From positions 1 through 24,611 of IMG/VR virus record IMGVR_UViG_3300037264_000934: 24,611 nt of DNA, one strand, 5' to 3'. This DNA is from a virus. Below, in pieces: positions 2,166 through 13,894 of the stretch; the first letter of the stretch is position 1, and the number at the start of each line of letters is the position of its first letter. The notes under the pieces are model-generated. The model saw only the letters and a program-made list of their open reading frames with translations, was not told where the DNA came from and searched no databases. Position numbers and translations under genes: made by a program.

Positions 2166-3055
2166 TGGTGGAGCATCACGAACCCCCAAAACTCATGACA
2201 AGCAGATATTCGTGGACGCGGACCAGACGGCGGTCGCCCTTGTCGAACTGTCCGATCCTCTGTATCGCTCCGTTGTTCACAAGACGTAAAACGACTTCTT
2301 CCTTGAGCGACCAACCGTGGGCGGCGTGAAGTCGCACAACATCGTGGTGTAGCGGAAGAATGGTTCCTCCAGCGTCACGGAGTAGGCCGACGACCCAACA
2401 GGCCACGGCTCCCGGTTTGGCGACACGAGTGGTTTGTTCAACAACCTGGTCGAGCCCTTTAAGAAACGACCCGTAAGACGGCAACATGGACAGGTCCGCC
2501 GGTCCGCCGTCGTACTGCTCAAGGTCGTAGTAGGGCGGACAGGTGATGATGAAGTCGGCCCAATTTGTCGGAGCGACCACATCTCTAGAATCGCCCTGGA
2601 CGACAAGAGCCTTCCCGGTTACCCCCGCGTTGTCGATTCGCTTCCTAACAGCCTCGACTTCGTTGGCGCGGAGTTCCACCCCTAAATAGTCATACCCACT
2701 AAGAGCTGAAAGAACAGCTCGTGTCCCGCCTCCGCCGAACGGGTCGAACACTTGGGCAGGCGAGTCAGGGGCAAAACAGTTCAAGGCGTATTGAGTGACG
2801 GAGGGGCTGAACACTGAAGCGGTCACCTTGCCCCGGTAAACGGACGCATCATGCGTTTCCTGAGTGAACGAACCGTCCCGTTCTTCACCGCCGTCGCCCA
2901 ACTGTCGTTTAAGTTCCTTCGTGAAAGGGTCGCTGTAATCTATATCCCAAACGGTGGTCGGCCATAACCCGTAACGTTCTTTGGCTGTAGCAAACACAGG
3001 GTTCTCGTTTCCGAACAGGTCTGGTTGAACACTCATGAGTGGTGGAGCATCACGA
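2166..3055. repeat. exact 16-bp direct repeats flanking a methyltransferase gene
   Basis: The sequence TGGTGGAGCATCACGA occurs at 2166-2181 and again at 3040-3055. Both copies contain the stop codon of a gene in the same phase, and each lies just upstream of the next start codon (10 and 4 nt). Together they bracket the methyltransferase gene almost exactly, so recombination between them would remove it cleanly. The span given includes the gene between the copies. Confidence 0.75.
2176..3036 (-). CDS. DNA methyltransferase (amino-methyltransferase type), 286 aa
   Basis: Start is ATG 3036 (MSVQPDLFG), 13 nt after the HNH gene. The S-adenosylmethionine-binding motif I is DPFGGGGTR (residues 98-106) and the catalytic motif IV is TCPPY (165-169), followed by DLEQYDGG. 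Motif I before IV, with a Rossmann-like core and no DNA-cytosine-C5 motifs, indicates exocyclic N6-adenine or N4-cytosine methylation. Cysteine replaces the usual Asp, Asn or Ser before PPY. No restriction endonuclease is adjacent, so an orphan anti-restriction enzyme is likely. It is related to the methyltransferase at 5566-6501 and is flanked by 16-bp repeats. Target sequence is unknown. Confidence 0.85.
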   Translation of the reverse strand: MSVQPDLFGNENPVFATAKERYGLWPTTVWDIDYSDPFTKELKRQLGDGGEERDGSFTQETHDASVYRGKVTASVFSPSVTQYALNCFAPDSPAQVFDPFGGGGTRAVLSALSGYDYLGVELRANEVEAVRKRIDNAGVTGKALVVQGDSRDVVAPTNWADFIITCPPYYDLEQYDGGPADLSMLPSYGSFLKGLDQVVEQTTRVAKPGAVACWVVGLLRDAGGTILPLHHDVVRLHAAHGWSLKEEVVLRLVNNGAIQRIGQFDKGDRRLVRVHEYLLVMSFGGS

Positions 3056-3406
3056 CACCACCGAACGCAACATCTGATTGAGTCGTTCAACTTCGAACTT
3101 CCAGTCGATCCGGTCATACATGAGAGCCTGCCCGCGGATGGTTTCCCACCGCGCCGGCCACTTCGTAGACACCCAAATCTCGAACTCCAACGGATGATGC
3201 GTGAAGTACATGTGGCAGCCCTGGCAGAGACACAACCCGTTCGACTCGTCAGTCCGAACCGCCTTGTAGCTCCGAGAGATGATGTGAGCGCATTGCAGAT
3301 TCCCCGAATGGTTGGGGCGGTCGGATTCGCAGTAGCCGCGGGATCGGACCACCTTCGAGAACAACACGTCGGCCTGGTGCATGAAGTTGGTTCTACGTTT
3401 GGTCAT
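3050..3406 (-). CDS. HNH endonuclease, 118 aa
   Basis: The ATG at 3406 overlaps the end of the LexA-like gene by 14 bp; the longer in-frame reading from 3475 would overlap that gene far more. The HNH core is CAHIISRSYKAVR (residues 39-51) and SNGLCLCQGCHMYF (55-68). Catalytic or metal residues H41, N56 and H65 and zinc-ligand cysteines C26, C39, C61 and C64 are all visible. The layout resembles phage recombination-type HNH nucleases (NinG-like). It may process recombination or packaging intermediates or act as a homing nuclease. Its closeness to an annealing-protein gene in the same operon favours a recombination role, by inference. Confidence 0.8.
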   Translation of the reverse strand: MTKRRTNFMHQADVLFSKVVRSRGYCESDRPNHSGNLQCAHIISRSYKAVRTDESNGLCLCQGCHMYFTHHPLEFEIWVSTKWPARWETIRGQALMYDRIDWKFEVERLNQMLRSVVS

Positions 3407-4196: not shown

Positions 4197-4784
4197 CTAC
4201 CCGCTCCAATTCTTCGGGTCAATGAGCGAGCATTTCCTGACCTTGTACTCCCACCGGACCTTAGGTGAAGTGTCCACGTCCACCGGACGACGACGCGACC
4301 CTGTATCCCAAGCCTGGTGCGTCTCCTGCTTGTTTGAGACATACCAGTTCGCCGCCTTGTAGATCGTTCCCTGGTGGACGCTTGTCATCTGATAAGACAG
4401 GACACGACACACGTCTGGTTCGTCGCGACGAATCCCCTTTACCATCCCGCCCAGCATCCGCGTCGCGGTGAACTTCGGCGCATAGTCGGGGATCGCCAGT
4501 CTCCGCAGTTCGAGAAGGTGCGACGTTTCGTGACTCAACCGGTTCCCGGCGACTGGTCGCGTCCAAATCCCCACCCCATAAACGCCGTTGTCGAACACCG
4601 CCGCATAAGCGAGTCTGACATCTCCAAACGACCACGCGCCGGGTTCGGGAAGTTGCGAATGCCATAACCGGTTGTATCTGGTCGCAGCATCCATGTCGAG
4701 TCGGAGGATTTGGAGCTGCCTCGCAGAATCCGCGGTCAGCGTCGGCCACCCAAAGAGGGGTTCGAACGTTTCGATGGTCATCAT
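4197..4784 (-). CDS. Mom-like DNA modification protein (GNAT-type fold), 195 aa
   Basis: The start overlaps the previous stop as ATGATG; ATG 4784 or 4781 are both possible. The family signature is visible: NRLWHSQLPEPG near residue 37, a central segment (VFDNGVYGVGIWTRPV), then LELRRLAIPDYAPKFTATRM, and later VLSYQMTSVHQGTIYKAANW. This matches phage proteins related to Mu Mom, which modify adenines to make phage DNA resistant to restriction. The molecule here may transfer another group. A Com-like zinc finger occurs at 18700-18888, and two methyltransferases are also encoded. The family call is firm; the chemistry is inferred. Confidence 0.7.
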   Translation of the reverse strand: MMTIETFEPLFGWPTLTADSARQLQILRLDMDAATRYNRLWHSQLPEPGAWSFGDVRLAYAAVFDNGVYGVGIWTRPVAGNRLSHETSHLLELRRLAIPDYAPKFTATRMLGGMVKGIRRDEPDVCRVLSYQMTSVHQGTIYKAANWYVSNKQETHQAWDTGSRRRPVDVDTSPKVRWEYKVRKCSLIDPKNWSG

Positions 4785-5050
4785 GTCAACATCGCCGGCG
4801 GGAACGGACACACCCGAGCAACAGGATGCTCCCGTATGGGTCGGCCACAGTGGAAGCAGGACAAGGCGCCCGTGCCCGGGAAGTTCGAATCGCCATATCC
4901 TGACGTTCTCGCTTTCGGCTGATAGTTCCGGGTGTTCTCCCGGTTACAACTACGACAGGTCACGTTCCCCATCACCGACGTCAGATATTCGGTGGGGATA
5001 CGAAGGCCGCAAGCTGATAAGTCTCCGTCGCTTGTCCGGTGGGTGAGCAT
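4781..5050 (-). CDS. zinc-ribbon protein, 89 aa
   Basis: ATG 5050 lies 8 nt after the previous gene; an in-frame GTG at 5074 would overlap it by 16 bp. The protein has an H-x-CG ... VTCRSC pattern (residues about 4-35) and a second pair CFHCGRPIREH near residue 67, so one or two zinc sites are likely. Proteins with the N-terminal half of this pattern are common small unknowns in actinophages. It precedes the Mom-like gene with an ATGA overlap. Function is unknown; nucleic-acid binding is possible. Confidence 0.6.
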   Translation of the reverse strand: MLTHRTSDGDLSACGLRIPTEYLTSVMGNVTCRSCNRENTRNYQPKARTSGYGDSNFPGTGALSCFHCGRPIREHPVARVCPFPPAMLT

Positions 5051-5435: not shown

Positions 5436-5569
5436 ATCGTCCAAACTCCGAGGTCTTGGTATCGGGTCAACCCGTATCCAGTATCAGTGAACATAAGCGA
5501 GAAGGTGAAGACGATCGTTACGACGAGGAGAAGAACAGCGAAGTAGAGGAGAGCGAAACGGAGTCTCAT
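5432..5569 (-). CDS. small single-span membrane protein, 45 aa
   Basis: The ATG overlaps the methyltransferase stop as ATGA. Residues about 5-26 (FALLYFAVLLLVVTIVFTF) form one clear transmembrane segment after a basic MRLR start, followed by a short polar tail, which suggests an inside-in, C-out anchor. No further domain is present. Its function is unknown. Coupling to both neighbours is the main evidence that it is translated. Confidence 0.5.
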   Translation of the reverse strand: MRLRFALLYFAVLLLVVTIVFTFSLMFTDTGYGLTRYQDLGVWTI

Positions 5570-6501
5570 TCGAGGGGGTCGATCCGTTGGGCATTGGCAG
5601 CGGCTTTCATCCCGTCGCCTTTCACACAGACGACGACATGCTGGTGGATCATTGTCGGCTTCCGTCCAGCGTTGAACGTGGCGGAGGCGCGTAGTCGGGC
5701 GGTCCCGACCGGATTCAATAACACGAGGTCGCCGTAGTAGTCGGCGCCTGCCCGTCCGAACGCTTCGACGGTCATGCCAACAAGATCGACCATCCGACCG
5801 GATTCTCGGTAGTTGCCTACGACGAACACGGCGAACCGGTCGTCAGCTAATCGAGAGACGGCTTTGTCTATTGCCGTCCGATAGGGGCCGATGAACCTGT
5901 CGGCTTTCATAGTGGACAAATCCCTCGGGTCGTCGCTGTACCGTTCCAACGTCCCGTAAGGCGGGCAGGACAGGATCAGATCGGCGGTTACGTCCGGTTG
6001 GTAGGTGGACGCGTCGCCGATATGCCACAGAGGAACGGGATTGTGGGGGGCCAACACCCGGTTCGCGGTTCGTTGGTTGGTGCCAACTTGGTCCGGTGAC
6101 AGGTCGACGCCGTGATACGTCCGGCCGAGGAGGGCGGACACGATGCCCCGAACAGGGCCACCCGCGAACGGGTCAAGGACAACGCCGGAAGCGGGTGACC
6201 ACCAGCGGAGGACCAGTTCGGTTAGGACCGGGTCGAACAGGGAGGTTCGACTATCACCAGTCGTGGCGATCATCTGCGACACTGGATCAGTCCCGCCGGA
6301 CTTGTTGAATGTCAGATCATCGGCCCGCCCCAACCCGTCGTCGTCTAGGTGTAGGGAGTCCCACAGACCGCGACGTTCCTGCCACCGGCCTGACTTGGTG
6401 TCCAACACCGAAAATGGAGGTATCCCGAATCGGTCGGCCAAGCCCCATTGTTCGATGTATTCGTCGGGTTCGAACAGGCCCGTTTCGAATAGGTCACTCA
6501 T
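5566..6501 (-). CDS. DNA methyltransferase (amino-methyltransferase type), 311 aa
   Basis: The N-terminus carries PPFSVLDTKSGRWQERRGLW (residues 28-47), typical of a phage-encoded DNA methylase family. Motif I is DPFAGG (110-115) and motif IV is SCPPY (178-182), followed by LERYSDDPRDLSTM. The C-terminal segment (FNAGRKPTMIHQHVVVCVKG) also matches the family. Exocyclic amino methylation of adenine or cytosine is expected, with cysteine before PPY instead of the usual Asp, Asn or Ser. The start overlaps the previous stop as ATGA. It is a distant paralog of the enzyme at 2176-3036. No cognate nuclease is nearby, so protection of phage DNA is the likely role. Confidence 0.85.
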   Translation of the reverse strand: MSDLFETGLFEPDEYIEQWGLADRFGIPPFSVLDTKSGRWQERRGLWDSLHLDDDGLGRADDLTFNKSGGTDPVSQMIATTGDSRTSLFDPVLTELVLRWWSPASGVVLDPFAGGPVRGIVSALLGRTYHGVDLSPDQVGTNQRTANRVLAPHNPVPLWHIGDASTYQPDVTADLILSCPPYGTLERYSDDPRDLSTMKADRFIGPYRTAIDKAVSRLADDRFAVFVVGNYRESGRMVDLVGMTVEAFGRAGADYYGDLVLLNPVGTARLRASATFNAGRKPTMIHQHVVVCVKGDGMKAAANAQRIDPLE

Positions 6502-6722: not shown

Positions 6723-7021
6723 AATTGTCCTTTCCGCACCGGGGGAGTCATCTTCCCAGGAACCCCCCCGGCACGCTCGCGCTTCAGCTCCTCCCTTCTG
6801 TTGAGGAGGCAGCGTCTGCACCGACCCAAACGGCCGTCGCTGCTCCGGTGGTATCTGTAGAAGGATTCCACGGTTTTCGTTTGATAACAGGCTGAACATT
6901 TCTTCCATCCGAACGGCAATGATGGTTTCAGTGTTTCTTTCTCCCGGATTTTCACCATACGTTCCAGCGAAGCGACAAGATGTTTCGCTGCCAGGTTCAA
7001 GTCGGCGTCAGTGATATTCAT
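6719..7021 (-). CDS. zinc-binding protein with paired CxxC motifs, 100 aa
   Basis: The start overlaps the winged-helix gene stop as ATGA. After a helical N-terminus there is KKCSACYQTKTVESFYRYH and then GRLGRCRRCLLNRREE, the spacing of a zinc finger found in many phage proteins and in HNH-nuclease N-termini. No HNH core follows, so catalysis is not expected. The C-terminus is basic (ELKRERAGG). It probably binds nucleic acid. Co-location with the candidate origin gene may be meaningful but is not proof of a replication role. Confidence 0.6.
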   Translation of the reverse strand: MNITDADLNLAAKHLVASLERMVKIREKETLKPSLPFGWKKCSACYQTKTVESFYRYHRSSDGRLGRCRRCLLNRREELKRERAGGVPGKMTPPVRKGQL

Positions 7022-7509
7022 GGCACACCAAAAGCGGCGAGCCGGATTAGGTAGGTTCCCCAGGGTTCGCCTTCTTCTCTTGGAAGTGCGTTAAGCGCCT
7101 CTGGATCAATTGGTTCTGAAGATGAATCTGGATTGTCGGACACTGGTGACCCCACCTCCCGGACACTGGTGTCCACCCGGTGGGGTCGTGGGTGTCCACC
7201 CCCCCTGGACACTGGTGTCCGCCCCCTACCCCTGGAAATAGCGAACGGCAACGTGTAAAGGTTGGAGGTCTGATCTCCCGCATCAGTGAACCGACGGTTC
7301 ACTTCGAGAGCTCCCATCTCAAGGAGAATCTGCAAAGCTCGACGGACCGTCCGGTCAGACACGTCCAACGCCTCGCCGATAGTCGCCTGAGACGGCCAAC
7401 ACTGGCCGGACTTGTGGTCGGCTCGGAGCGCCAAGTAGAAGTAGACACGCAGGGCGGCGGGAGACGCTTCGATGAGGTAGTCGGGAATGATGGCGAACTG
7501 CGCCGCCAT
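7018..7509 (-). CDS. winged-helix protein, candidate replication initiator, 163 aa
   Basis: ATG 7509 is preceded by GGAGG with an 8-nt spacer, which decides the start over a TTG at 7524. The N-terminal 85 residues are a helix-turn-helix domain (FAIIPDYLIEASPAALRVY, WPSQATIGEALDVSDRTVRR, LQILLEMGALEVNRRF) as in phage and plasmid replication initiators. The C-terminal half is a low-complexity Arg/Gly/Pro/Ser linker with a short helical end (GTYLIRLAAFGV). The DNA encoding the linker holds four 23-bp repeats, as in the lambda O gene. No helicase loader or helicase follows, so host replication proteins would be recruited. A transcriptional regulator is the alternative. Confidence 0.65.
   Translation of the reverse strand: MAAQFAIIPDYLIEASPAALRVYFYLALRADHKSGQCWPSQATIGEALDVSDRTVRRALQILLEMGALEVNRRFTDAGDQTSNLYTLPFAISRGRGRTPVSRGGGHPRPHRVDTSVREVGSPVSDNPDSSSEPIDPEALNALPREEGEPWGTYLIRLAAFGVP
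7138..7229. repeat. four 23-bp iteron-like repeats (candidate replication origin)
   Basis: Units start at 7138, 7161, 7184 and 7207. Three share the palindromic core GGACACTGGTGTCC (7161-7174 and 7207-7220 exact; 7138-7151 with one change). The third unit keeps the right half GGTGTCC. The period of 23 is not a multiple of 3, so the repeats do not encode a repeated peptide and must be kept at DNA level. A less GC-rich tract (about 41% GC over 7101-7137) follows on the coding strand. This layout matches the lambda origin within gene O. Confidence 0.6.
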
Positions 7510-7547
7510 GCTGGTAACCTCCAAGTTGTAATATAGGCACCACTCAT

Positions 7548-7581: not shown

Positions 7582-7786
7582 TTCGTCCAATTTCCGCGAA
7601 CAAGCCTCTGAACCATCTCATATCTCTCTGACCTGTTTCGGTCCGCAACGCAGCCCGGACCCCCACCTCAGCCACGTAGGTTCGGACAGCCAGCCGGTGC
7701 AACAACACGATGATGTTGTCGACGGTTAACGCCTCGCCGGAGGTCAGGGGATGGGAGAGTGGGGCCTGACCCCCGGCAAGACTCAT
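7577..7786 (-). CDS. hypothetical protein, 69 aa
   Basis: ATG 7786 overlaps the previous stop as ATGA; the longer frame up to 7861 overlaps the upstream gene. The sequence has an N-terminal polar part and a helical C-terminal half (VDNIIVLLHRLAVRTYV and AEVGVRAALRTETG), with a basic end (FAEIGRK). I recognise no domain. Its stop lies within a strong hairpin. It may be an RNA or DNA binding accessory protein, but this is a guess. Confidence 0.5.
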   Translation of the reverse strand: MSLAGGQAPLSHPLTSGEALTVDNIIVLLHRLAVRTYVAEVGVRAALRTETGQRDMRWFRGLFAEIGRK

Positions 7787-8394
7787 TCGTCCCTCGTGGA
7801 CATGACCAGGACGAATCCGAGAACCGCCGACACCGCGCCAGCGAACACGAGGGTCGCCCACATCACAGTTGACAATCCCGTGAAGGGCAGGACAGGCGCC
7901 GTCGTAGTCGGATCAAGAGTGGAGGTCGAGCACACCGGGACCAACACGTCAACGAACTCCGGCTCAACGGTCCAACCGTCCTCAACTATTGGGATCAGCC
8001 GAAACACGGTCGGCGTCCCAACCTCCCCCCACTTGGTTCCAGGCTCAAGAAACGGGTTGCCCAAATCTCCTACCAGCTCGCCGGTGCCGGGCACCGTGTC
8101 CAAACTCCACACGTCCACCCGTGTGATGCCTTCACCCCACTCGACAGTGACTTGATCGCATGTTGCCGAGGCGGACCAAGAGGCGACCAATGAACCGGGC
8201 GTCGTTGTTGTCGATTCTGAGTTGGTCGTCGTGGTTGTACCAGCAGTCGTAGAGGTCGTGGATTCGGCAATAGTTGTCGTCGGTTGTTCCGTAGTAGAAA
8301 CGGTCTCCGTCGTTGTTGTCCATTCGTTCCCTCCATACGCTGGCAGGGCAAACCCCACCACCAGGATTATCCCTGCCGTAAGTATTCGTCTCAT
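7783..8394 (-). CDS. LPFTG-type cell-wall-anchored surface protein, 203 aa
   Basis: The layout is that of a sortase substrate. A signal peptide (MRRILTAGIILVVGFALPA) is followed by a Thr/Ser-rich linker (residues about 26-67), a globular part (68-157) with two cysteines (C79 and C155) and then LPFTG (169-173). A hydrophobic span (176-198) and a short tail ending RDE complete the sorting signal. The host sortase would attach it to peptidoglycan. A phage gene of this type suggests alteration of the infected or lysogenic cell surface, such as blocking superinfection. The start overlaps the annealing-protein stop as ATGA, so it is in the early operon. The globular part is not recognised. Confidence 0.75.
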   Translation of the reverse strand: MRRILTAGIILVVGFALPAYGGNEWTTTTETVSTTEQPTTTIAESTTSTTAGTTTTTNSESTTTTPGSLVASWSASATCDQVTVEWGEGITRVDVWSLDTVPGTGELVGDLGNPFLEPGTKWGEVGTPTVFRLIPIVEDGWTVEPEFVDVLVPVCSTSTLDPTTTAPVLPFTGLSTVMWATLVFAGAVSAVLGFVLVMSTRDE

Positions 8395-9044
8395 GCGTTC
8401 CCCTCTAGTGTCGGTTGTTCGATCGGACGTTCCGCATACTGGGCCTCCATGTTCTTGAAGATCCGTTTCGCCTCATCCATTGAAGTCAACGCCACGATGC
8501 CCAAGTATTCCATCGCCGACTGATACGCCATCTTCCTCTCCTTTACGCTCCACGCCTTGAAGATCTTGCCCTCCTCGGCCAGCCATCCGAACCCGACTTC
8601 CGCCTGAGTCGGCTCCCGCACGACCTCATCGAGAGTGTGGGTGTCAGCGTCAGCATCCTCCCCCGACCCGATTAACAGCACCTGGGTCAGCGCATATTTG
8701 AAAGCCATCTGCTCGGCTTTGGTGGTCGACTTGTCGCCGTAGTCAATGGCTTCGCCTCCCATTGACGTGACCACCAAACTGCCGTCCTTCGCGGCGAAGG
8801 TGTATTCCATCGTGACGGTGCAACGCCAGCCCCGAGCCCCCGACTTGGACACGACCTCGGCGTAATCTTTCTCCAAGAGGCGAGGGGTTACCGAGATGGA
8901 CAGGGACGAGAACACAGGCTTAGCCGCAGCAACAATGGAGTCGATGGACCGGAACATGAACCCCTGCTCCTTGTTCTTTTCGGTCTTGTTCAGCGCCCCG
9001 ATCTGGCCAGCAGCATCAGCGAGAGCCTTATAAATCTCGCTCAT
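8391..9044 (-). CDS. erf: ERF-family single-strand annealing protein, 217 aa
   Basis: Start ATG 9044 (MSEIYKAL) overlaps the previous stop as ATGA. The longer in-frame opening to 9425 is an artefact of the repeat region upstream. The ERF signature is present: NKTEKNKEQGFMFRSIDSI (residues 19-37), DGSLVVTSMGGEAIDYGDK and TKAEQMAFKYALTQVLLI, then SGEDADADTH. ERF proteins anneal complementary single strands in phage recombination and can circularise the genome. No associated exonuclease is visible, though the HNH gene is in the same operon. The C-terminal part is helical and variable, as is common in the family. Confidence 0.85.
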   Translation of the reverse strand: MSEIYKALADAAGQIGALNKTEKNKEQGFMFRSIDSIVAAAKPVFSSLSISVTPRLLEKDYAEVVSKSGARGWRCTVTMEYTFAAKDGSLVVTSMGGEAIDYGDKSTTKAEQMAFKYALTQVLLIGSGEDADADTHTLDEVVREPTQAEVGFGWLAEEGKIFKAWSVKERKMAYQSAMEYLGIVALTSMDEAKRIFKNMEAQYAERPIEQPTLEGNA

Positions 9045-9892
9045 CGGTCTCTCATCGCATAACCCAGCTCGCCGGGTCCGACAGGAATCACGAGTTCCAA
9101 TCCGGCCTGGTAGGCGTCGCGGATGCCCACCGTCAAGAGTTGCGGATCGTCCTTCGTCCATTCTTGGATTGCGGCGAATTCGACGGTGAGAGCAGCCCAA
9201 GCATCCCGAGCAGCCCGAGCATCCCAAGCAGCCCAAGCAGCCCAAGCATCCCGAGCATCCCAAGCAGCCCGAGCAGCCCGAGCATCCCGAGCAGCCCAAG
9301 CAGCCCGAGCATCCCGAGCAGCCCGAGCATCCCGAGCAGCCCGAGCAGCCCGAGCATCCCAAGCAGCCCGAGCATCCCAAGCAGCCCAAGCAGCCCAAGC
9401 ATCCTCGAACCTTCGGAGCTTCCAATCAAGACCTCGGGCAGCGAGAGCAGCCTTGAGTCCCCGCTCCACGTCCCGCACGTTGCGGCGCGAACGACCGAGC
9501 GCCTCCAACCAGGCCAATTGAGAGTCGACCATGTGGTCACAATGGGGGGCGAACGGCGCGGACATTGCGGTGACCGCCTCCCGCCAAACGTGATCATCGG
9601 CGACCCCGACAATGCGAAGGGATTCGGCGCGGCACTTGTCGCCCCGTTCCACCCAATCACCGACCGTTTCCACTTCCAGGAGTACTGAGGGGCGCCCGTC
9701 GGACCACATGCCGGCGATGCGGAGGGCGGTTACGGGTTGGAGACAAAAGTTCCAACCCGGAGCACATTCAGTGTTGGTCCGGTCGAGTTTGCGCTTCAGG
9801 AGGACCGCCCCCAAAGTCCCATCCCAAACCGGCTTCCCACCCCGCAATGGGGGCCGGTACTCGCTGGTCAACACTTTGAACCCGGTGGTCAT
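9041..9892 (-). CDS. phage protein with A-(W/R)-(A/D) tripeptide repeat, 283 aa
   Basis: The N-terminal 140 residues (TGFKVLTSEYRPPL, then CAPGWNFCLQP and LLEVETVGDWVERGDKC) resemble the phage DUF7666-like domain. Residues about 163-235 consist of a tripeptide repeat, Ala then Arg or Trp then Ala or Asp, predicted to form a long helix. A 45-residue C-terminal tail follows (EFAAIQEWTKDD). The start overlaps the previous stop as TGATG, and the stop overlaps the ERF start. The function of such repeat proteins is not known; DNA binding or oligomerisation is possible. The repeat DNA is described separately. Confidence 0.7.
   Translation of the reverse strand: MTTGFKVLTSEYRPPLRGGKPVWDGTLGAVLLKRKLDRTNTECAPGWNFCLQPVTALRIAGMWSDGRPSVLLEVETVGDWVERGDKCRAESLRIVGVADDHVWREAVTAMSAPFAPHCDHMVDSQLAWLEALGRSRRNVRDVERGLKAALAARGLDWKLRRFEDAWAAWAAWDARAAWDARAARAARDARAARDARAAWAARDARAARAAWDARDAWAAWAAWDARAARDAWAALTVEFAAIQEWTKDDPQLLTVGIRDAYQAGLELVIPVGPGELGYAMRDR
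9189..9404. repeat. 9-bp tandem repeat C(A/G)AGCA(G/T)CC, 24 units
   Basis: I count 23 consecutive units matching C(A/G)AGCA(G/T)CC from 9198 to 9404, preceded by one imperfect unit at 9189. Only two positions vary, one toggling Arg/Trp and the other Asp/Ala in the real frame. None of the six frames has a stop inside the array, which produces long spurious ORFs on both strands. Slippage by whole units would change length without shifting frame. Confidence 0.9.
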
Positions 9893-13262: not shown

Positions 13263-13894
13263 TACAAACCTTCAACCACGATCCAGGGGGAACCAATCAC
13301 TCCCGCCGCCCCGGTAGAGACCAGAGCTTGAACCGTGAAGGTGTTGGTCCCAGTGGTGAGAGCGTTTTGGTAGTGGCCCCGTCCAGCACTGATCAGCGTC
13401 CCGGCCGGATCGGATTCGGTGACGGTCCCCCAAGTGTTCGACGAGGAGATCGAGGTCGCCCCCGACACCCGGTAGGAGAGTTGGACGTTCGACCCGAGAG
13501 TCGGATGGTCCACATATCTGGCACCGAAGAACACCATCGCCTGAGTGCCGGTCCCGACCGACACTGCCACTGTGGTACCCGTACCCCACAAGGCGTTAGA
13601 CAGGTCAGTGAACGAGGTAGGCCAGGCCGCCGCCGCGGTGTAAGTAGCGTCGCCGACTAGTCCGTCCGTGGCCCGCCAGGTGGGAGTGGTTCCATTGGAG
13701 ACGAACGTCCAGCCAGCAGTCCCGATCGCTATCCGAGACCCCATGCTGTTGGCTGCATCGGCGTAGGAGATGTCCCCCGCGGTGGTCACCGTGGCGGCCG
13801 AGGTCTCCAAGAAATTGTCCCGGACGTGGGTGTTGAGCAGGGCCGCCGTCACTGTTTCGCCGGTAACCCAAGTGCGCGGTGCGGCCCAGGCCAT
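13262..13894 (-). CDS. tail fibre / receptor-binding-like protein, 210 aa (paralog 1)
   Basis: The start (MAWAAPRTWVTGETVTAALL, then NTHVRDNFLETSAATVTTAG) is nearly the same as in the following gene. Residues about 40-55 (DISYADAANSMGSRIAIG) are also shared. The middle differs, and the end ESDPAGTLISAGRGHYQNAL aligns again. Beta-rich, low-complexity sequence fits a trimeric fibre or tip protein. It lies downstream of the tail-tip protein and a zinc-ribbon gene and begins as TGATG. Host-range determination is the likely role, by position. Confidence 0.65.
   Translation of the reverse strand: MAWAAPRTWVTGETVTAALLNTHVRDNFLETSAATVTTAGDISYADAANSMGSRIAIGTAGWTFVSNGTTPTWRATDGLVGDATYTAAAAWPTSFTDLSNALWGTGTTVAVSVGTGTQAMVFFGARYVDHPTLGSNVQLSYRVSGATSISSSNTWGTVTESDPAGTLISAGRGHYQNALTTGTNTFTVQALVSTGAAGVIGSPWIVVEGL

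Follow-up and report, generated by a model that had tools for sequence, protein, structure and literature searches.

The stretch of DNA analysed here (the window) is a linear viral contig from IMG/VR, 24.6 kb in length (24,611 nucleotides) and probably a fragment. On its minus strand, positions 7018–7509 hold a gene that starts with ATG (an alternative TTG lies at 7524) and encodes a 163-aa protein which, on the strength of Pfam, PHROG and AlphaFold results, we read as a winged-helix (HTH_36) replication initiator. The first half of the protein matches HTH_36 (Pfam E = 3e-11), with weaker matches to other HTH families, and RepA_N (PF06970) was absent from the same Pfam scan. PHROG matches are to ‘replication initiation protein’ and ‘O-like’ families (best phrog_270, E = 2e-14), the match ending at residue 129 of 163. 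In the AlphaFold model, a winged helix–turn–helix (wHTH) domain at about residues 8–88 (pLDDT above 90 at residues 11–70) is followed by a low-confidence linker at about residues 90–135 (pLDDT mostly below 60) and then by a short tail, with a short predicted helix at residues 150–159. A foldseek search with the model returned generic winged helices with low TM-scores and transcription regulators on top, the Rep–DNA complex structure 5kbj being among the weak matches; a search of PDB sequences gave no match. A C-terminal partner domain of the lambda O style, which would recruit a helicase loader, was not found in the protein.

Inside this gene, at 7138–7229, lies an array of four iterons, the feature that the initial annotation had singled out. 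The repeats start at 7138, 7161, 7184 and 7207, and both coordinates and sequence bear out the exact 23-bp register and the described make-up of the palindromic core as two exact copies, one copy with a single change and one half site. Iteron 1 (7207–7220), closest to the wHTH-coding part, and iteron 3 (7161–7174) are exact copies of GGACACTGGTGTCC; iteron 4 (7138–7151), GGACACTGGTGACC, carries the single change and adjoins an AT-rich tract; and iteron 2 (7184–7197), GGTCGTGGGTGTCC, has the GTGTCC arm only. Tandem Repeats Finder reports a period of 23 with 3.9 copies at 7137–7226. With up to one mismatch, GGACACTGGTGTCC occurs three times in the whole record, each time in the array (7138, 7161 and 7207), and a reversed control pattern occurs nowhere in it at the same tolerance. 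The iterons encode the low-confidence linker, with the short C-terminal helix of the model beyond them; HTH_36, the replication-initiation PHROGs and the modelled succession of wHTH domain and linker all agree with the earlier placement of the array in the linker-coding part of a predicted initiator.

A period of 23 does not divide by 3, which puts the copies in different reading frames, and peptide repeats do not explain them, as had been argued from the sequence at the outset. The four copies are read as GSPVSD, VDTSVR, GHPRPH and RTPVSR, with all three frames used. As a null for the array we generated 5,000 synonymous recodings that left the protein unchanged: the observed sequence has three sites that match at 11 or more of 12 positions, against a mean of 0.14 and a maximum of two in the recodings, and the lag-23 self-match of the array has P = 0.0004. 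On both grounds, the three frames and the synonymous null, a peptide-repeat origin was rejected. The predicted RNA fold of the array is unremarkable (z = −0.9, with 34 of 200 shuffles equally good), and neither a known RNA family nor an RNA structure at the array is supported. We regard as barely credible the wider idea that the repeats have nothing to do with protein binding and are plain products of coding or slippage, or part of an mRNA structure. A low-confidence, probably disordered linker could tolerate such repeats, and a slippage-type array of 9-bp units does exist elsewhere in the window, at 9190–9401; against this stand the use of three frames, a synonymous null that almost never gives the sites, the ordinary fold and the recurrence of the same palindrome in distant proteins, described below.

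Positions 7101–7137, which adjoin the array on its 3′ side (coding strand), form a candidate DNA unwinding element. The initial annotation had noticed a less GC-rich tract here, and the numbers agree: it is 59% AT, against a mean of 40% in this 60% GC genome, and ranks within the top 0.7% of the window's 37-bp stretches for AT. A or T occupies 11 of its 12 third codon positions, compared with 27% in the wHTH part, and its AT content was reached by none of the 5,000 synonymous recodings. Since such recodings rarely or never reach them, the iterons and the AT-rich tract both look selected at the DNA level.

The surrounding genes place the locus in a recombination/replication region, with a neighbouring ERF-family single-strand annealing protein at 8391–9044 on the minus strand (Pfam ERF E = 7.5e-18). 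Genes flanking the initiator match endonuclease VII, HTH_39, ERF or nothing, with no lambda-P-like gene beside it in this incomplete record; no helicase, loader or primase was recognised in the 24.6-kb fragment, and no partition or terminase gene was found near the array. The earlier statement that no other replication gene is visible thus holds for the fragment and does not extend beyond it, as the record is probably partial. For the same reason cumulative GC skew, proposed as a marker of the origin, was uninformative: in this partial genome it has no turning point at 7.1 kb.

Several other features of the window are worth recording. The gene at 7783–8394 (minus strand) encodes a 203-aa protein that begins with a hydrophobic segment, contains a Thr/Ser-rich stretch and has, near its C-terminus, an LPFTG motif that precedes another hydrophobic segment and a short charged tail; because it has the look of a sortase-anchored surface protein, it suggests a Gram-positive host. 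The 9-bp array at 9190–9401, within 9041–9892 (minus strand), comprises 23.6 copies of GAGCAGCCC and yields AAW/DAR-type amino-acid repeats, the other frames there also being long and open. Two related DNA methyltransferases (phrog_12517/498) and a Mom-like DNA modification protein are encoded at 2176–3117, 4197–4811 and 5566–6501 (minus strand), a heavy investment in DNA modification for one fragment.

Close relatives of the window were found neither in IMG/VR, by wHTH, ERF or methyltransferase peptides, nor among GenBank phages by megablast, and conservation was therefore assessed through motif scans and distant relatives. Two GGACACNNGTGTCC palindromes exactly 23 bp apart occur in nine viral contigs. 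When the gap between palindromes was left free (0–30 bp), 13 viral and 14 genome contigs were retrieved, and pairs at 22–26 bp spacing were present in 12 of the 13 viral and 4 of the 14 genome contigs. These pairs lie in the linker just past a wHTH domain in every case except locus L004, and their carriers include Nitratidesulfovibrio prophages, a Planctomycetota contig, an Aestuariivirga contig and metagenomic phages. Contigs with only 15-bp or at least 30-bp spacing have no wHTH gene at the sites; such pairs, in Massilia, Kribbibacterium, Streptomyces, Rhodovulum and others, were set aside as unrelated inverted repeats. Relaxed motif scans returned 52 and at least 120 contigs. GGACAN4TGTCC pairs 21–25 bp apart fell in a wHTH open reading frame (ORF) at 101 of the 129 viral-contig loci listed, and pairs of the nGACACNNGTGTCn variant did so at 46 of 56 loci, against a background in which wHTH ORFs make up 7.6% of the DNA; as these loci are kin, forming 53 clusters at 50% identity, the associated p-values are indicative only. 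Some of the leftover loci are cut off at contig ends or have a winged helix seemingly too diverged for the profile. The spacing histogram of the clusters is conditioned on the scan, which allowed 21–25 bp, so our claim about spacing uses the free-gap scans alone. Judged at the level of sequence, the array-in-initiator arrangement recurs in dozens of unrelated phages.

Similar repeats were also seen in other settings. The exception noted above, L004, has three GGACAC..GTGTCC palindromes at 13739–13797, 23 and 22 bp apart, with no obvious winged-helix gene, the best weak winged-helix match lying about 1.2 kb away. Two loci (L040, 9599–10168; L064, 8977–9531) have a RusA-resolvase-like gene with GACAC..GTGTC repeats in its own coding sequence, and in L040 the nearest winged-helix match is about 4 kb from that gene. 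Several contigs of a single Alphaproteobacteria MAG (L015, L024 and L025) carry dispersed GGACACTAGTGTCC pairs at 30–40 bp spacing, outside winged-helix genes.

To guard against circularity, we also picked 24 phage loci by protein similarity only. In-gene repeats at lags of 20–26 bp, with a period of about 21–25 bp, were detected in 19 of them (18 at the 0.005 floor and one at 0.025), at most 550 bp from the domain start, and no array was detectable in the remaining five. Retention of the protein by relatives that had lost the repeats had been named as an outcome that would speak against an origin; what we found is mostly the opposite, although about a fifth of these relatives lack arrays. The array motifs are mostly other than the window's: GGGGTACCCC in Arthrobacter phage Edmundo, GGTATACC in both Lactobacillus phage LJ and Lactococcus phage D7138, and CGACAAAATTGTC in Cellulophaga phage phi39:1. 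The site sequence changes along with the protein, while its position just after the winged helix is kept. Conservation of the 23-bp spacing had been proposed as a check; what persists in relatives is an in-gene array with a 21–25 bp period, and the sequence of the sites varies. Among unselected HTH_36 matches from whole genomes, arrays were present in only 12 of 69, and because many of these matches resemble transcription regulators of the GntR type, HTH_36 alone is insufficient. Many relatives carry the annotation of replication initiation protein, and several stand beside a gene for a DnaB-like helicase, a helicase loader, replication protein P or a putative DnaC. The genes of two short GGACA-type initiators (L030 and L079) run directly on into one for a primase-helicase (PHROG E about 1e-83). 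Among the neighbours checked in a Nitratidesulfovibrio prophage (L020) and in L008, nothing was recognised as a helicase, loader or primase. Phage GAP31 (L199) has two TGACAAAAACG copies about 24 bp apart, at about 2285–2325, directly past the stop codon of a winged-helix gene whose 98-aa product has a replication initiation protein annotation, possibly a version in which the array sits just outside the gene.

The AT-rich flank also has its counterpart in the family. In 51 cluster representatives, AT content averages 59.7% over the 40 bp that follow the array on its 3′ side; the corresponding figures are 48.8% for the 5′ flank, 47.5% farther out in the 3′ direction and 47.2% in the contigs overall (Wilcoxon p about 1e-5 to 2e-7). 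The AT peak is sharp when sequences are aligned on the end of the array and diffuse when they are aligned on the end of the domain, and it is strongest at third codon positions, where AT climbs from 0.40 (wHTH part) to 0.64. The tract of the window lies on the same side of its array as in the family average.

These observations bear on the idea that the palindromes are operators from which the winged-helix protein, as a repressor, acts on its own or a neighbouring gene from within the coding region. Palindromic, dimer-type sites would suit a repressor, MarR-like regulators head the fold matches, and some Arthrobacter phage homologues are annotated as ‘transcriptional repressor’. For operators, however, one would not expect sites that follow the DNA-binding domain, away from the promoter, nor two to five of them at 22–24 bp with a one-sided AT-rich tract, nor DnaB, DnaC or primase-helicase neighbours, and we consider this reading quite improbable; autorepression on top of an origin function is possible. 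That the same protein instead binds the array as a partition or maintenance (centromere-like), packaging or recombination site seems to us very improbable. Centromeres also have iteron-like arrays and the region contains the ERF annealing gene, but the window has no partition or terminase gene nearby, the relatives adjoin helicase, loader or primase-helicase genes, and a one-sided AT-rich tract suits an unwinding element.

The modelled recognition helix of the window's initiator spans residues 52–65 (H52–65), placing R56 at helix position 5; its core RTVRR (residues 53–57, in SDRTVRRALQ; codons at 7339–7353, minus strand) is the predicted reader of the GGACA arm. Among initiators whose genes carry GGACA sites, 36 of 37 clusters combine an R or K at helix position 2 with an R at position 6. 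An arginine at position 5 goes with an outer G in all 25 clusters that have it, compared with 14 of 28 clusters with other residues (p = 2e-5), and in a scan that left the outer base free, G was present in 4/4 cases with Arg at position 5 versus 3/17 with others (p = 0.006). The pairing in the window, SDRTVRRALQ with GGACAC sites, fits this pattern. Recognition helix and site covary across these sequences, in indirect support of the proposed binding. A simpler statement, by which a pair of arginines goes with GACA arms, was borne out by the phage set (4/5 versus 0/13, p = 0.002) and failed as a sufficient rule in the unselected genome set, so that a partial code is retained. Three loci of that unselected draw (L249, L280 and L277) have R/K..R helices yet GTCA-type or mixed arms; their arrays are palindromic (for example, GGTCAAAAATGACC, period 22) and perhaps represent a sister specificity. 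The array of phage Lietuvens (L197) lacks GACA arms.

We conclude that the array is, with high probability, a phage replication origin inside its initiator gene, at which the protein would bind the palindromes, the AT-rich tract would open and a helicase would be loaded. The candidate in-gene origin of the initial annotation gains support from the in-gene arrays of relatives, their AT-rich tract on the same side and their DnaB, DnaC, P or primase-helicase neighbours. The four sites are very probably the initiator's own binding sites. As we envisage it, the 163-aa protein would bind the 14-bp GGACACNNGTGTCC palindromes every 23 bp, presumably as one dimer each, and side-by-side binding would build an O-some-like complex. 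Strain from this initiator–iteron complex could then open the tract at 7101–7137, where a helicase would be loaded; because no phage loader or helicase was recognised in the fragment, this would most likely be host DnaB or an unrecognised phage partner. The initial annotation had suggested that host replication may be recruited here; recruitment of host DnaB is possible, but a partner could be encoded in the part of the genome that this record lacks. What the sequence backs is the array, its independence of frame, the AT-rich tract, the layout in unrelated initiators and the covariation of helix and site; that the protein binds the sites and dimerises, that the tract is unwound, that a helicase is loaded and that replication starts here is what we propose to explain them.

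For the family as a whole, a proposal that we hold to be evenly poised is that the HTH_36 initiators of phages belong to a single, very broad class with an iteron origin of 21–25 bp period in their own linker, in which many divergent members from different phyla share GGACAN4TGTCC, read by a [RK][TSQ][VI]xR helix with an arginine at x selecting the outer G, the window being a minimal version without a recognisable phage loader. If so, genes that hold the target of a DNA-binding protein along with the protein itself would make a protein–DNA recognition code readable from sequence databases. As far as searched, it is new how widely the GGACAN4TGTCC subset extends and that helix and site covary; no description of the shared array was found in the open-access literature (subscription literature lay outside the search). 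The analysis places a probable replication origin at base resolution in an uncultured phage and would extend the lambda-style origin within an initiator gene over a large HTH_36 family in which a GGACA palindrome recurs. As each gene carries protein and sites, origins could be annotated automatically in phage contigs, and specificity rules for winged helices could be derived from such genes and tested in bulk.

The general kind of origin is already known from lambda O, SPP1 gp38 and pSK41 Rep, and the window, with its winged-helix initiator, regular in-gene iterons and adjacent AT-rich tract, is best read as joining that kind. A review by Weigel and Seitz (2006) reportedly covers origins within phage initiator genes. 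Phages of Staphylococcus, Lactobacillus and Cellulophaga have HTH_36 ‘replication initiation proteins’ with the same kind of domain and, just after it, in-gene arrays with a period of 21–24 bp; their sites differ from the window's (CGACAAAATTGTC, GGTATACC and others), and a DnaB-like helicase gene follows two of them, phi39:1 gp41 and Lb LJ gp07. SPP1, likened here by description, has oriL inside gene 38, which encodes the gp38 initiator (PMC6316719), but it also has the loader gp39, the helicase gp40 and a second origin, oriR, none of which is seen in the window. The N-terminal wHTH of pSK41 Rep binds four Rep boxes in the middle of rep, where the origin DNA encodes the linker (PMC5703833). 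Unlike the RepA_N plasmid initiators (pSK41 Rep, pTZ2162 RepA; PLE RepA), the initiator of the window belongs to a phage and has HTH_36 instead of RepA_N, with no C-terminal primase-interaction domain seen. Lambda O, like its counterparts in the Stx phages P27 and 933W, is a dimeric initiator with palindromic iterons in mid-gene and an AT-rich flank (PMC7466680). For Stx phage P27, synonymous changes that disrupt the iterons are reported to abolish replication (PMC7466680). With lambda O the window shares in-gene palindromic iterons and an adjoining AT-rich tract, and its protein matches O-like PHROGs; unlike lambda, it has GGACAC..GTGTCC sites rather than iterons of the ATCCCTCAAAACGAGGGA type, just a short tail past the linker, and no counterpart found of the P gene product with which O partners. 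The label ‘lambda-O-like’ therefore describes the way of working proposed for this locus and not strict family membership, for which a P-like partner or a C-terminal partner domain would be expected.
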